This document shows positions 22,266 to 27,576 of a stretch of DNA of 64,000 nucleotides, in pieces. The translations under genes were made by a program, and so were the position numbers. The stretch spans positions 62,001-126,000 of the forward strand of contig JAHBVX010000014.1 in assembly GCA_019637295.1 (NCBI GenBank), written 5' to 3'. The DNA comes from Polyangiaceae bacterium (GTDB lineage Bacteria; Myxococcota_A; Polyangia; Polyangiales; Polyangiaceae). The notes beneath the pieces are model-generated. The model made no database searches, was not told where the DNA came from, and worked only from the letters and a program-made list of their open reading frames with translations. Numbering within the stretch: position 1 is the stretch's first letter; the number at the start of each line of letters is the position of its first letter.

Positions 22266-22646
22266 ATGCGCGCGTGGGTCAGAGCTCGAGATCGAGCAGA
22301 AGCGACGGGTGTGGGCGTGCTCGCCGGGTTCTTCTTCCTGGTGACCGTCGCTCCGCTGCTCGTCTCCGTCGCGCTCAGCCCGGACGACATCGACTCCGGA
22401 CGCGTGCGGCTCACGGGCCCCTGCCCCTACCTGGCCGAGACCGGAACGCCCTGTGGCAGCTGCGGGCTCACGCGCGCGTTCGCGTCCATGAGCCGCGGGC
22501 AGCTCGCGCGGGCCTCGGCCTACAATCCGGCAGGCCCGGTGTTGTGGGGTTTGTTCGTGGTCGGCGCGGGGACTTCCGGGTACACCGTCGCGCTCGTTCT
22601 CGCCCGACTGGCCCAGCTCAAGCGCCAAGGCGCCCTGGCTCACTGA
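22266..22646 (+). CDS. DUF2752 membrane protein
   Basis: 126 residues with two membrane segments (GVLAGFFFLVTVAPLLVSVA; VLWGLFVVGAGTSGYTVALV). The loop between them carries the family signature CPYLAETGTPCGSCGLTRAF plus the SRGQLARASAYNP segment. The conserved cysteines suggest metal or thiol chemistry at the membrane, but the family's function is unknown. It overlaps the end of the convergent phosphofructokinase gene by 7 nt. Confidence 0.85.
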   Translation: MRAWVRARDRAEATGVGVLAGFFFLVTVAPLLVSVALSPDDIDSGRVRLTGPCPYLAETGTPCGSCGLTRAFASMSRGQLARASAYNPAGPVLWGLFVVGAGTSGYTVALVLARLAQLKRQGALAH

Positions 22647-23818
22647 CCGACGGCGCCGGATTTCGGCGGAGAGAGCTCGACGAACGGCGGAGCCGGGATG
22701 CTGGGGTGGAAGGTCCCCTCGTTCTCGTCACCGAAACACAGGCCGAGATCCCTCCCGGTCTGCAGCACTCGGTCGTCCAGCGGGACCGTGCGCAAGCGCC
22801 GGGTTCCCTCTTCCAAGGGCACCAGCTCGATCTCGCCCCTCCTCACGGCCACCAGTCCGCTCTCGCTGCGCTCGGCGATGAAGCGGGTGGCGGCACAGCC
22901 GAGCCGCAAGGCGAGGACGCGATCGCTCGCGACAGGGCTGCCCCCGCGCTGCAGGTGGCCGAGCACCACCGTGCGGGTCTCCTTGCCGGTACGCGTCGCG
23001 ATCTCCTGGGCCACATACTCCGCGATGCCGCCGAGCTGTCCGTGTTCCTTGAACGCGTCCGCGCTCGCCCGATAGCGCATCTCACCACCCGCGGGGCGCG
23101 CACCTTCGGCCACGACCACGATCGAGAAGTGGCGGCCACGCGCCTCACGCCGCTGGATCTTCTCGGCCACCGCCCGTGGATCGAAGGGGATCTCGGGGAT
23201 CAGGACCACGTCCGCGCCGCCGGCGATCCCCGCGTACAGCGCGATCCACCCGGCGGTCCTGCCCATGACCTCGACCACCATGACCCGCTCGTGTGCCGCC
23301 GCGGTGGTGTGCAGCCTGCCGATGGCTTCGGTGGCGGTAGCCACCGCCGTGTCGAAGCCGAAGGTCACGTCCGTGCCAGGCAGATCGTTGTCGATGGTCT
23401 TGGGCACTGCCACCACGCGGGGCATGCCGCGCTCGAGCAGCTTCATGGCGAGGGCCGTCGAGCCGTCCCCGCCGATCGCCACGACGTCGTCGATACCGAG
23501 CTCGCGCATGCGACGCACTACGAGCTCCGAGACGTCCGTGGGAACCAACTTGCCGTCCGTCATGACGGGGTAGCGGAATGGATCGCCGCGGTTCGTCGAG
23601 CCGAGGATGGTGCCACCCAGGTGACCAATGCCCCGCACCGCGCTGCGGTCGAGCTCCAAGACGCCGTCGGTCCCGTGCTCGATGAGGCCGCGGTAGCCGT
23701 GGAGGATGCCGAGCACGCGCCAGCCCCGCCAGTGGGCGCTGACAGCCACCGCGCGAATGACCGCGTTGAGCCCGGGAGCGTCACCGCCGCCCGTGTTGAC
23801 GGCAATCGTTCTGGTCAT
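22640..23818 (-). CDS. 6-phosphofructokinase with mixed ATP/PPi signature
   Basis: 392 residues from ATG 23818 (MTRTIAVNTGGGDAPGLNAV). It phosphorylates fructose 6-phosphate at C1. The phosphoryl-donor site reads GGDGS (116-120), with the Gly typical of ATP enzymes, while the next motif is PKTIDND (139-145), with Lys140 where ATP enzymes have Gly and PPi enzymes have Lys; Asp143 is the catalytic base. The substrate segment VMVVEVMGRTAGWIALYAGI is also present. Donor (ATP, PPi or both) therefore cannot be settled by sequence. A TAGCAT box 8 nt upstream supports the start. Confidence 0.92.
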   Translation of the reverse strand: MTRTIAVNTGGGDAPGLNAVIRAVAVSAHWRGWRVLGILHGYRGLIEHGTDGVLELDRSAVRGIGHLGGTILGSTNRGDPFRYPVMTDGKLVPTDVSELVVRRMRELGIDDVVAIGGDGSTALAMKLLERGMPRVVAVPKTIDNDLPGTDVTFGFDTAVATATEAIGRLHTTAAAHERVMVVEVMGRTAGWIALYAGIAGGADVVLIPEIPFDPRAVAEKIQRREARGRHFSIVVVAEGARPAGGEMRYRASADAFKEHGQLGGIAEYVAQEIATRTGKETRTVVLGHLQRGGSPVASDRVLALRLGCAATRFIAERSESGLVAVRRGEIELVPLEEGTRRLRTVPLDDRVLQTGRDLGLCFGDENEGTFHPSIPAPPFVELSPPKSGAVGQ

Positions 23819-23826
23819 GGCGCCGA

Positions 23827-23836
23827 ATGCTAGTGT
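23827..23836. promoter_or_regulatory. Overlapping divergent -10 boxes (ATGCTAGTGT)
   Basis: Read on the minus strand, 23832-23827 is TAGCAT, ending 8 nt before the phosphofructokinase ATG (23818). On the plus strand, 23831-23836 is TAGTGT, ending 9 nt before GTG 23846. The two boxes share two base pairs, and the whole intergenic spacer is 27 nt. Confidence 0.5.
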
Positions 23837-23845
23837 CGTTGCCCC

Positions 23846-24871
23846 GTGACCGCGACCCCGCCGATGCTCCCCGAGCCCGCGCGCCTGCTCAGCGGGCCCA
23901 CCCCGGTGAGGCGCCTCGACGCCCTGTGCACGGAAAACGTCGAGCTGTGGCTCAAGGACGACGGCCTGACGCACCCCGAATACGGCGGCAACAAGGTGCG
24001 CAAGCTCGAGTTCATCCTGGGCGTGGCCCTGGCCCGGGGAGCGCGGCGCCTGGTGACGAGCGGCGCGGCGGGGAGCCACCACGTGCTGTGCACGGCGCTG
24101 ATGGCCAGGCACTTCGGCCTACCCGTAGCGGCGGTGCTGTGCCCCCAGCCGCACACCGAGCACGCCGAGCAGATGCTGCGCGCGATCCTGGCCTCCGGCG
24201 CCGAGGTGATACCGACGAGCTCCTACGCCGGCGTCGCGCTCGCCACCGCGCGGGTGCTGAGAGCGGGGGACCGGCTCATCCCCCCCGGGGGCTCGGACGT
24301 CTGGGGGACCCTCGGCTACGTTCGGTGTCTCCGCGAGCTGCTCGCCCAGGTCGACGCCGGAGAGCTGCCGCTCCCGGACGAGATCGTGGTGGCGGTGGGC
24401 TCCGGGGGAACGGCGGCCGGGCTGCTCGCCGGCTGCCTGCGGGAGGGCATACGAACCCGGGTCGTGGGGGTGGACGTCGCGACGTCACGCTGGGTGGCCC
24501 GCTCCGTCGTGCTGGGCCTGGCTCACCGGGCGTTGGCCCGCGACGGCGGGGCGCCCGACTGGGGGCGCCTGGCCAGCGGGCTCGTGCTCGACGGAGCGTT
24601 CAAGGGTGGGGGGTACGGGGAGCCCTCCGACGCGGGGCGACGCGCCGAAGCGGAGGCAGGGCGAGTGGGGCTGACGCTCGATCCGACCTACACCGCCAAG
24701 GCCTTCGCTGCCGCGCTGCGCCGCCGTGACCGCGCCGGACAAGCCCAAAAATTGTTGTATCTCCACACCTTGAGCAACGCGACCCCGGGCCCCGGGGCGC
24801 CCCCGACGGCGGTCTTCGGCGTCCCCGAGCTCCGCCGGCTGCTGACCCCGACCCGTGCGCTGGCACGCTAG
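23846..24871 (+). CDS. PLP-dependent D-cysteine desulfhydrase / ACC-deaminase family enzyme
   Basis: 341 residues from GTG 23846. A fold-type II PLP enzyme: the cofactor lysine is K50 in HPEYGGNKVRKLEF, followed by VTSGAAGSHHVLCTALMARH (phosphate/substrate loop), GSDVWGTLGYVRCLREL and the PLP phosphate cup VVAVGSGGTAAGLLAG. The C-terminal DPTYTAKAFAAAL is also typical. The family splits D-cysteine (to H2S, ammonia, pyruvate) or aminocyclopropane-carboxylate; the residues seen do not decide between them. It is divergent from the phosphofructokinase gene with overlapping -10 boxes. Confidence 0.88.
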   Translation: MTATPPMLPEPARLLSGPTPVRRLDALCTENVELWLKDDGLTHPEYGGNKVRKLEFILGVALARGARRLVTSGAAGSHHVLCTALMARHFGLPVAAVLCPQPHTEHAEQMLRAILASGAEVIPTSSYAGVALATARVLRAGDRLIPPGGSDVWGTLGYVRCLRELLAQVDAGELPLPDEIVVAVGSGGTAAGLLAGCLREGIRTRVVGVDVATSRWVARSVVLGLAHRALARDGGAPDWGRLASGLVLDGAFKGGGYGEPSDAGRRAEAEAGRVGLTLDPTYTAKAFAAALRRRDRAGQAQKLLYLHTLSNATPGPGAPPTAVFGVPELRRLLTPTRALAR

Positions 24872-25026
24872 CGCACCGCCCGTCGGTTTTCTGCGCCCGC
24901 CGCCCCCCGACCTGCTGGCATACTCGGGCGAACGTGGCTGGTACCTGCATCCGTGGTGCGCGGCGTGATCGGTCAATGCCTGGCCCCCTCGGTTCGTTCC
25001 GCCCTATGGTGGCTCGGCTAGTGTAG

Positions 25027-27576
25027 ATGGCGGCCCCCCAACCTCGCTCTCAAGTCCCCGCCGGCTCGGTGGTCGGGGAGAAGTTCCGCATCACCCGCGA
25101 GATCGGTCGAGGCGGGATGGCCGCCGTGTACGAGGCCGAGAACATCCACATCGGCAAGCGGGTCGCCGTCAAGGTCCTCAACCCGGAGCTGACGACCTCG
25201 CGCATCGTGCGCGAGCGGTTCCTGCGCGAAGCCCGGGCAGCGGCGGCCATTCGCAGCCCGCACATCTGCGACGTGTACGACTCGGGCGTGTACGAAGAGC
25301 GGCCGTTCTTGGTCATGGAGCTGCTCGAAGGCGAGAGCCTGTACGACATGATGACCCGCGTGCGGCAGCTCGACCTGGACACGACGCTGCGCGTCGCGAT
25401 CCACTGCTGTCACGGGCTGGGCAAGGCCCACGAAGCCAACGTCATTCACCGGGATCTCAAGCCCGAGAACATCTTCCTCACCAAGGACGGCGATGGCGAG
25501 CTGGTCGCCAAGATCCTGGATTTCGGCCTGGCGAAGTTCTACGAGACGAACGACGACTCGGCGCCGAACGTGAGGCTGACGCGAGAGGGCGCGCTCTTCG
25601 GCACCCCGGCATACATGAGCCCGGAGCAGGCCAAGGGGAAAGGTGACGTGGACCTGCGCGCGGACCTGTGGGCCCTCGGCTGCATCGTGTACGAGTGCCT
25701 GACCGGCCAGACGGTGTGGAACGTGGACCAGGGGGTGGCCATGATCCTGGCGCAGATCGCGGGCGCGCCGATCCCCAGTCCTCGCAAGCTGCGCCCGGAC
25801 CTGCCCGAGAGCTTCGAGGAGTGGTTCAAGAAGGCGCTGGAGCGCAACCCCGACAACCGCTTCCAGACCGCCAAGGAATTCGGCGACAGCTTGGCCCTCG
25901 CGCTCACCGGCGCGGCCCCGGTCCGACGCTCGGCGCCGAGCGCGCGGGAGAGCGCGCTGGTCGACGAGCTCGTCAGCCAGAGTCATGCGGCGCTGCCGAC
26001 TCCCCCGGGTGGGCGCCTGCCAACGCTGGATCTGCCCAGCGAAGAGCTGCTGACCGCGCCACCGCCGGCGAAGAAGTCCAGCGCCGCGGGCCCCGTCGCC
26101 TGGCTGCTCGGCGCGGCGGCGCTCGCCCTCGGCGGGTACGCCGTGTGGTTCTATGTGCTGCACCCCCCCGGCGCGGCCACGGCAGATCCGCCGCCTACGG
26201 CGAGCGCGCCGGACGCCGCGGTCCCCGAGGCCGGCGGCGAGCCCGTCGAGAAGCTCGCGCCGGTCGAGCAGGAGCCCTACGCGCTACAGATCGGCTCGGC
26301 GCAGAAGCTGCTCGTCGAGGGCCGACTCGAGCAATCCCTCTCGCTGTTCAAGGAGGCGTTCAACAACGGCGGCACGGGGGTCGCGCGCGCGCTGCTCAAT
26401 CACGCGTCCACCTCCCTGCCCTCGGCCGACGGACCGTGCCGCGTCACGGGGCTGAGTCGCCCGCGGCCCTTCGACGTAGTCGTCATGAGCTCGCGTCCCA
26501 CGGTGGCGCTGACCCCCGTCGGACCCGTCGCCGTGTGGGTCGACAACCATCAAGACCCGGCCCGGCGCCAGGCGTTCGCCGCGGTGCTCGACCGCGAGCT
26601 GCGCCGGATCAGCCCAGCGCGCCTGGTCACGCCGGAGGCCGAGAGCGTGCGCCACCCGCAGCTGCTCGCTGCAGACGAGAAGCTCGCGCTGATCTACTGG
26701 GACGGCGCCGGACGCGAGCCTGGCGTCTACCTGCGCATGCTCCACGCGGACGCGCGCATCGCCACCCGAGCCGAGCGACTGTCGGGGGTGGGCCGCAACG
26801 AGTTCTCACCGGCGCTCGCGCGCGCCAGCGACGGCTCGTTCTGGGCCGTGTGGGAGGAGAAGCTCGAGAGCGGCTCCGAGATCATGGCTCGGCGAGTCTC
26901 GTCGGAGGGCGCTCCACTCGGCGACGCCGTGCGCCTCACCGTGTTCGCTTCGTCGAGGACTGCGACCACTGACGCCGGCAAGCCGGATCTGTTCTTGAGT
27001 GAGCGACACATGAACGTCGTGTTCACCCTCGACCGCGACAAGAAGCAACAGATCATGCTGCTGCGCGTGGAGCTGACGGACCCAGGCCTCAAGACCGGCC
27101 TCACGCCGGAGCCGCCCGAAAAGGGCGCGAAGAAGAAGCGCACGGACCGCGTGCTGGGCACCCTCGAGCCGGTGAGCACCAGCCACGGCAAGAACTCGCA
27201 GCCGCGGATCACGTGCACCGCCAGCGGTTGTTTCGTGGTGTGGGACAACGAGCGCGGCGGCGCGCACGCTGCGTTCATCGAGGGGGACAAGGCTTCGACC
27301 CTGTGGCACCGCGAGTTCTCTCGCCGGGGCTCGCGACCCGCCGTCGGCGTCGCGGCCGCCGGCGCAGCAGTGACGTGGTACGAAGGCGGCCGGGTCAAGC
27401 TCGCCAAGCTGTCCCGAGATGGCGTCGATCGCCCGACGTCCATCGCGCGTGTGAGCGGATTCCAGCCCTATCCCGCGATCGCCGCGGGCGAGAAGGCCGG
27501 CGAGTGGTACGTGTCGTGGCGCGACTACGAGGCCGGCCACCTCGAAGCGTTCGTCGTTCGGAGCGAGTGTCCGTAG
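25027..27576 (+). CDS. Transmembrane Ser/Thr kinase with large extracytoplasmic repeat region
   Basis: 849 residues. Kinase domain ~18-292: GRGGMAAVY (28-36), ATP lysine K49, the canonical HRDLKPEN loop (D143), DFG at 165 and an APE-like YMSPEQ. A Pro-rich juxtamembrane stretch precedes one membrane segment (~356-378). The ~470-residue outer part has a short TPR-like piece (AQKLLVEGRLEQSLSLFKEA) and then repeated blade-like units (FSPALARASDGSFWAVWEEK; SQPRITCTASGCFVVWDNER; FQPYPAIAAGEKAGEWYVSW) consistent with a beta-propeller sensor. It is first in a run of eight co-directional genes. A TAGTGT box (25019-25024) lies only 2 nt before the ATG. Confidence 0.9.
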   Translation: MAAPQPRSQVPAGSVVGEKFRITREIGRGGMAAVYEAENIHIGKRVAVKVLNPELTTSRIVRERFLREARAAAAIRSPHICDVYDSGVYEERPFLVMELLEGESLYDMMTRVRQLDLDTTLRVAIHCCHGLGKAHEANVIHRDLKPENIFLTKDGDGELVAKILDFGLAKFYETNDDSAPNVRLTREGALFGTPAYMSPEQAKGKGDVDLRADLWALGCIVYECLTGQTVWNVDQGVAMILAQIAGAPIPSPRKLRPDLPESFEEWFKKALERNPDNRFQTAKEFGDSLALALTGAAPVRRSAPSARESALVDELVSQSHAALPTPPGGRLPTLDLPSEELLTAPPPAKKSSAAGPVAWLLGAAALALGGYAVWFYVLHPPGAATADPPPTASAPDAAVPEAGGEPVEKLAPVEQEPYALQIGSAQKLLVEGRLEQSLSLFKEAFNNGGTGVARALLNHASTSLPSADGPCRVTGLSRPRPFDVVVMSSRPTVALTPVGPVAVWVDNHQDPARRQAFAAVLDRELRRISPARLVTPEAESVRHPQLLAADEKLALIYWDGAGREPGVYLRMLHADARIATRAERLSGVGRNEFSPALARASDGSFWAVWEEKLESGSEIMARRVSSEGAPLGDAVRLTVFASSRTATTDAGKPDLFLSERHMNVVFTLDRDKKQQIMLLRVELTDPGLKTGLTPEPPEKGAKKKRTDRVLGTLEPVSTSHGKNSQPRITCTASGCFVVWDNERGGAHAAFIEGDKASTLWHREFSRRGSRPAVGVAAAGAAVTWYEGGRVKLAKLSRDGVDRPTSIARVSGFQPYPAIAAGEKAGEWYVSWRDYEAGHLEAFVVRSECP

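Follow-up and report, generated by a model that had tools for sequence, protein, structure and literature searches.

A 27-nt spacer between divergent phosphofructokinase and PLP-enzyme genes of a Polyangiaceae bacterium as a probable bidirectional promoter with overlapping -10 boxes

Passages of a study on Escherichia coli (PMC12825309) describe bidirectional promoters in which opposite -10 elements overlap and of which the transcription start sites (TSSs) are commonly 18, 10 or 23 bp apart. According to the same passages, five of these promoters displayed little polymerase competition at basal transcription, and one direction can be repressed by a strong rise of the other. A related study (PMC10268837) uses divergent TSSs 7-25 bp apart as the criterion for a bidirectional promoter. 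In leaderless genes, in turn, a TANNNT box precedes the start by approximately 12 bp (Zheng et al. 2011, PMC3160421). Of the 33 delta-Proteobacteria genomes in a table of that paper, 8 are listed with such genes, the mean being 15.8%; the words Myxococc- and Sorangium are absent from its main text. Literature searches for leaderless combined with bidirectional, divergent bacterial promoters gave matches that were off topic by title and abstract; those for leaderless combined with promoters and transcription start sites in myxobacteria, and for leaderless in Sorangium, gave off-topic matches as well.

The window, i.e. the whole stretch of DNA that was analysed, comprised 64,000 nucleotides of a Polyangiaceae bacterium (contig JAHBVX010000014.1, positions 62,001 to 126,000). 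It contained the following features around a short divergent junction:

22640-23818, minus strand: phosphofructokinase (PFK) gene (PF00365), start codon ATG at 23818
23808-23813, plus strand: -35 position of the putative PLP promoter, GTTCTG, 17-bp spacing, poor match, within the PFK gene
23819-23845, no strand: spacer of 27 nt between the two start codons, GGCGCCGAATGCTAGTGTCGTTGCCCC
23827-23832, minus strand: PFK -10 box, TAGCAT, at 8 nt from ATG 23818, 6.5 bits
23828-23829, plus strand: TG of an extended -10 (TGC TAGTGT) in the PLP direction, inside the PFK box
23831-23836, plus strand: PLP -10 box, TAGTGT, at 9 nt from GTG 23846, 7.0 bits
23846-24871, plus strand: PLP-enzyme gene, D-cysteine desulfhydrase / ACC deaminase-like (PF00291), start codon GTG at 23846
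23850-23855, minus strand: -35 position of the putative PFK promoter, TCGCGG, 17-bp spacing, poor match, within the PLP gene

For the PFK gene, the top NCBIfam model was TIGR02483 (PFK_mixed; 400.6 bits, under its cut-off of 430.55), and the match to NF002872 was above the cut-off of that model. The PLP-enzyme gene matched 13 NCBIfam models, under the cut-off for each of them. The position of the PFK start codon was aligned with an ATG in six of the seven relatives; in the remaining one (G006), the start was a GTG two codons further upstream. The start of the PLP gene is putative, GTG 23846 being the pick of a home-made, codon-usage-based gene caller, with codon 7 as the next ATG in frame. The window genome (G000) also contained a second PFK homologue (C12:498045-499190) with 49% identity, so that the PFK of the window need not be the sole glycolytic one.

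The two boxes, TAGCAT on the minus and TAGTGT on the plus strand, overlapped by one TA step (23831-23832), the ten base pairs of ATGCTAGTGT at 23827-23836 spanning both. Their first T was located at -14 and -15, on both sides within the -15 to -12 peak of the genome. The original prediction, namely that a spacer of merely 27 nt holds a -10-like box per strand at a leaderless distance and that the boxes share two base pairs, was borne out by the coordinates, by the genome-wide signal and by a motif built with both genes held out (see below). Its placing of the -35 regions inside the opposite gene proved correct for both directions at 16-18 bp spacing. The hexamers found there were TTCTGG, GTTCTG and CGTTCT in the PLP direction and CGCGGT, TCGCGG and GTCGCG in the PFK direction; all of them are poor compared with TTGACA, which is a point against reading the spacer as a bidirectional promoter. 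As to the extended TG on the PLP side, G was the most frequent base at -2 of the motif of this genome. By eye, the Shine-Dalgarno motifs GGAG, AGGA and GAGG were absent from both strands of the 27-nt spacer. A Ser/Thr kinase gene elsewhere in the window has a second GCTAGTGT (25017-25024) that ends 2 nt before its ATG 25027, which is too near for a leaderless start there; for this gene, the gene caller favoured a start at 25069.

The best explanation of the spacer, to which a probability of approximately 0.7 was assigned, is that of a bidirectional sigma-70-type promoter giving rise to two mRNAs that are predicted to be leaderless. The housekeeping (sigma-70-type) RNA polymerase would read the spacer both ways and, through the shared TA step, the same ten base pairs (ATGCTAGTGT) would be opened by a polymerase bound in either direction. 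Both boxes would thus be used, each transcript being predicted to start at or a few nucleotides from its own start codon, so that, going by the distance of the boxes, both mRNAs would have no leader or hardly any. The predicted TSSs are 28 bp apart if both mRNAs are exactly leaderless, and less if either begins a few nucleotides earlier. The reading as a promoter has good support on the PFK side and fairly good support on the PLP side. The geometry further suggests that one polymerase would sterically exclude the other, and exclusion at initiation is plausible for this gene pair. The two directions would mostly act as independent weak promoters, not as a switch.

A double box of this kind is rare by chance. 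Indeed, sequences with a TANNNT on each strand, 6-10 nt from the respective end, made up 0.24% of 100,000 dinucleotide shuffles of the spacer and 0.24% of 300,000 random 27-mers of 69% GC. For the random sequences, multiplying the single chances underestimates the joint chance approximately sevenfold, since one TA can serve two boxes.

Furthermore, boxes at this distance occurred in excess across the genome. Genes were called with a codon-usage caller that was blind to promoters, in 1.57 Mb of the window genome (window included) and in 0.4 Mb of each of two relatives (G028 and G055). In the window genome, the first T of a TANNNT was found at -15 to -12 for 52 of 444 co-oriented starts with a gap above 25 nt and for 52 of 456 divergent starts (the two genes of the window counted), together 104 of the 900 starts that were divergent or more than 25 nt from the preceding gene, versus none of 285 co-oriented starts with a gap of at most 10 nt, i.e. 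within operons. The same count yielded 11/124 co-oriented (gap above 25 nt) and 9/96 divergent starts (20/220) versus 0/46 starts with a gap of at most 10 nt in G028, and 13/115 and 16/102 (29/217) versus 3/64 in G055. Among 114 box sites of the window genome, T, T and G were favoured 23, 22 and 21 nt before the first T (frequencies of 0.39, 0.32 and 0.46), which is -35-like, and G was favoured two positions before it (0.61). An expectation-maximisation motif, derived from 1343 starts in the three genomes after exclusion of the PFK and PLP genes, was a GnGCTAnnCT-like element with preferred positions -15 to -12 and reached a posterior above 0.5 at 363 of these starts (248/904 in G000, 53/221 in G028 and 62/218 in G055). 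With this motif, the PLP box scored 7.0 bits and the PFK box 6.5 bits, whereas 7 bits were attained by 0.048% and 6 bits by 0.117% of 60,000 background positions. Promoters of the leaderless type, their core resembling GnGCTAnnCT, are hence common in the three genomes sampled, which is relevant to start-codon annotation in this lineage.

Conservation was examined by searching for both proteins in 65 loci, 33 of which were fetched by PFK and 32 by the PLP enzyme; the family searches covered 98 genomes per protein (108 for PLP at a stricter cut-off) and the order search 183 genomes. The pair was kept in at least eight genomes from four genera of the family, a lower bound since at most 30 loci were taken per search: G000 and G021 (g1), G013, G055 and G075 (g14), G028 and G063 (g28), and G006 (g7). 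In G006, the contig end falls inside the PLP gene, the start of which was a GTG chosen between two candidates. The PLP gene was absent from the fetched PFK loci at 64% identity or less, these loci extending approximately 1.5 kb to either side and some of them ending at contig ends. Left out of the pair count were a PFK-alignment scan of genome contigs (at least 80 loci, with 56% as the best identity among the matches listed) and a scan of viral contigs (10 distant matches).

The TANNNT on the PFK side was intact in all eight pair-keeping genomes (TAGCAT, TACAGT in three, TACATT, TACCAT in two, and TAGCGT), 6-10 nt from the start and with scores of 4.7-8.9 bits. The exact shared core ANNNTANNNT was retained in five of them (G000, G006, G013, G055 and G075), in which the PLP-side box scored 5.4-8.5 bits, the shared-TA box on this side thereby being kept in three of the four genera. 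In G028 (TAGCTC) and G063 (TAGCGG), the PLP-side box had lost its final T (1.1 bits), its remnant still ending 6-7 nt from the start. In the congener G021, the overlap read ACTGTAAGAC and the PLP-side box was displaced; the best plus-strand site there was TAGGCT (9.0 bits), the first T of which preceded the PLP start by 72 nt, and the PFK box (5.3 bits) ranked second on its strand, behind a site at -114 (6.1 bits). The original prediction had named loss of the core in close relatives with the same gene order as its refutation test; the PFK half was kept in 8/8 genomes and the PLP half was lost or moved in 3/8, the congener included, so that the core is only partly kept. In the three g14 genomes, TAGACT was the best plus-strand site and was unchanged, but its first T was located 49-62 nt before the PLP start; PLP is therefore not leaderless there and would have a leader. 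In these genomes (loci L036, L037 and L038), a conserved GAGACA precedes the PFK -10 box by 17 bp (spacing by eye) and is likely to be a -35 element inside the PLP leader. In addition, GATGCTAGTGT occurred before a PFK orthologue of another genome (G009) with a Shine-Dalgarno-like AGGAAGGA leader and without a PLP gene in the fetched locus, which indicates that, in other places, this string can be promoter-like in one direction.

As to whether overlap is a preferred design, boxes were present on both sides of 7 of 327 divergent junctions of the three genomes at the called starts, and the window junction was the only overlapping case among these seven. No excess of double-leaderless junctions was found in the window genome (4/228, versus approximately 3.7 expected from the single rates). 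When alternative starts within 90 nt were allowed and start pairs with a spacer of 22-30 nt were considered, 19 of the 327 junctions offered candidate pairs. A shared-TA core at double-leaderless spacing was found for 3 of 21 such pairs, the window pair counted, versus a shuffle mean of 0.048, and none of 2000 shuffles reached three; the start codons of the other two cases are doubtful. Candidate further cases in the window genome, with uncertain start codons, were C12:192150/192177 and C12:528094/528123. At the former locus (C12:192150-192404), a small gene, antitoxin-like by eye, was preceded by another shared-TA core (ATGGTAGGCT); the start codon of the divergent neighbour of this gene is uncertain.

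In 259 divergent regions, a shared TA was observed 25 times (13.5 expected), TANNNTA 46 times (22.9) and other offsets of at most 12 bp 53 times (27.7), offset +2 alone accounting for 20 versus 6.6 expected. The corresponding numbers were 28 (21.8), 54 (38.9) and 67 (47.9) for 717 co-oriented regions, and 4 (4.9), 8 (8.4) and 10 (10.4) for 172 convergent regions. A specific enrichment of the shared TA was rejected, as the rise in the divergent regions was equal or larger for TANNNTA and for the remaining offsets up to 12 bp; this increase of all offsets indicates a general excess of promoters, with no preference for the shared-TA overlap. It seems distinctly improbable that leaderless-rich genomes of this lineage repeatedly shrink a divergent intergenic region to the least that is physically possible, a start codon and a discriminator per gene plus a -10 core common to both, with two leaderless mRNAs that are obligately mutually exclusive at initiation.

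The unequal fate of the two boxes may be explained by a single real promoter, serving PFK only, the plus-strand TAGTGT being a by-product of the near-symmetry of a -10 element and the PLP gene using a weak or other start. Indeed, the PFK box was intact in 8/8 genomes and the PLP-side box in 5/8, from three of four genera; the shared TA makes a second box cheap, as reflected by the sevenfold joint chance in random 69%-GC spacers; and the overlap offsets were not specially enriched in the 259 divergent regions. However, the PLP-side box outscored the PFK box in the window genome (7.0 versus 6.5 bits) and possesses the extended TG, the next-best plus-strand site listed for that genome reached just 1.3 bits, and TAGACT was the best plus-strand site, unchanged, in the three g14 genomes. 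This renders a promoter for PFK only rather unlikely. That neither box is a promoter and that both genes are read from elsewhere is hardly credible: the poor -35 hexamers would suit such a chance origin, and 19 of 327 junctions with start pairs 22-30 nt apart offer room for a rare match somewhere, but both boxes have a chance of 0.24% and the PFK box was kept in all eight genomes while much of the remaining spacer varied (by eye).

The original prediction went as far as built-in reciprocal control, a polymerase bound one way silencing the other gene and thereby coupling glycolysis to PLP-enzyme output. The coordinates would leave no room for two polymerases simultaneously, and passages of PMC12825309 report that the opposite RNA is repressed once transcription in one direction is strongly raised. 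Yet the five E. coli examples tested there displayed little competition at basal strength, the overlap was not specially preferred in the genomes studied here, the PLP-side box was changed in three of eight relatives despite the kept pair, and the genome contains a second PFK homologue (49% identity). Reciprocal control is therefore unsupported, and a switch of this kind is highly improbable.

The bidirectional promoter with two predicted leaderless mRNAs thus being the preferred reading, confirmation of both starts would make this an extremely compact natural divergent promoter, in which 27 bp serve two genes without leaders. It would also lend itself to clean tests of polymerase competition, a separate regulator site having little space in so short a spacer. 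As in the bidirectional promoters described by Warman, Grainger and colleagues (passages of PMC12825309 and PMC10268837), the oppositely facing -10 elements overlap; a TSS spacing of 23 bp combined with 7 bp between -10 element and TSS gives by our arithmetic boxes sharing 2 bp, which is the geometry of the window pair. In those promoters, polymerase binds one way at a time, which for the window pair is suggested by geometry. In contrast, the predicted TSSs of the window pair are 28 bp apart if both mRNAs are leaderless, outside the 7-25 bp of PMC10268837, and both transcripts are predicted to be leaderless, a word absent from the main text of either paper. Compared with the leaderless genes of Zheng et al. 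2011 (PMC3160421), the box and its distance are the same, while the passages concerned of that paper do not treat gene pairs sharing one element, unlike the window pair. The gene pair is not proof of a new control switch, but a neat, compact case of an arrangement already known in bacteria.
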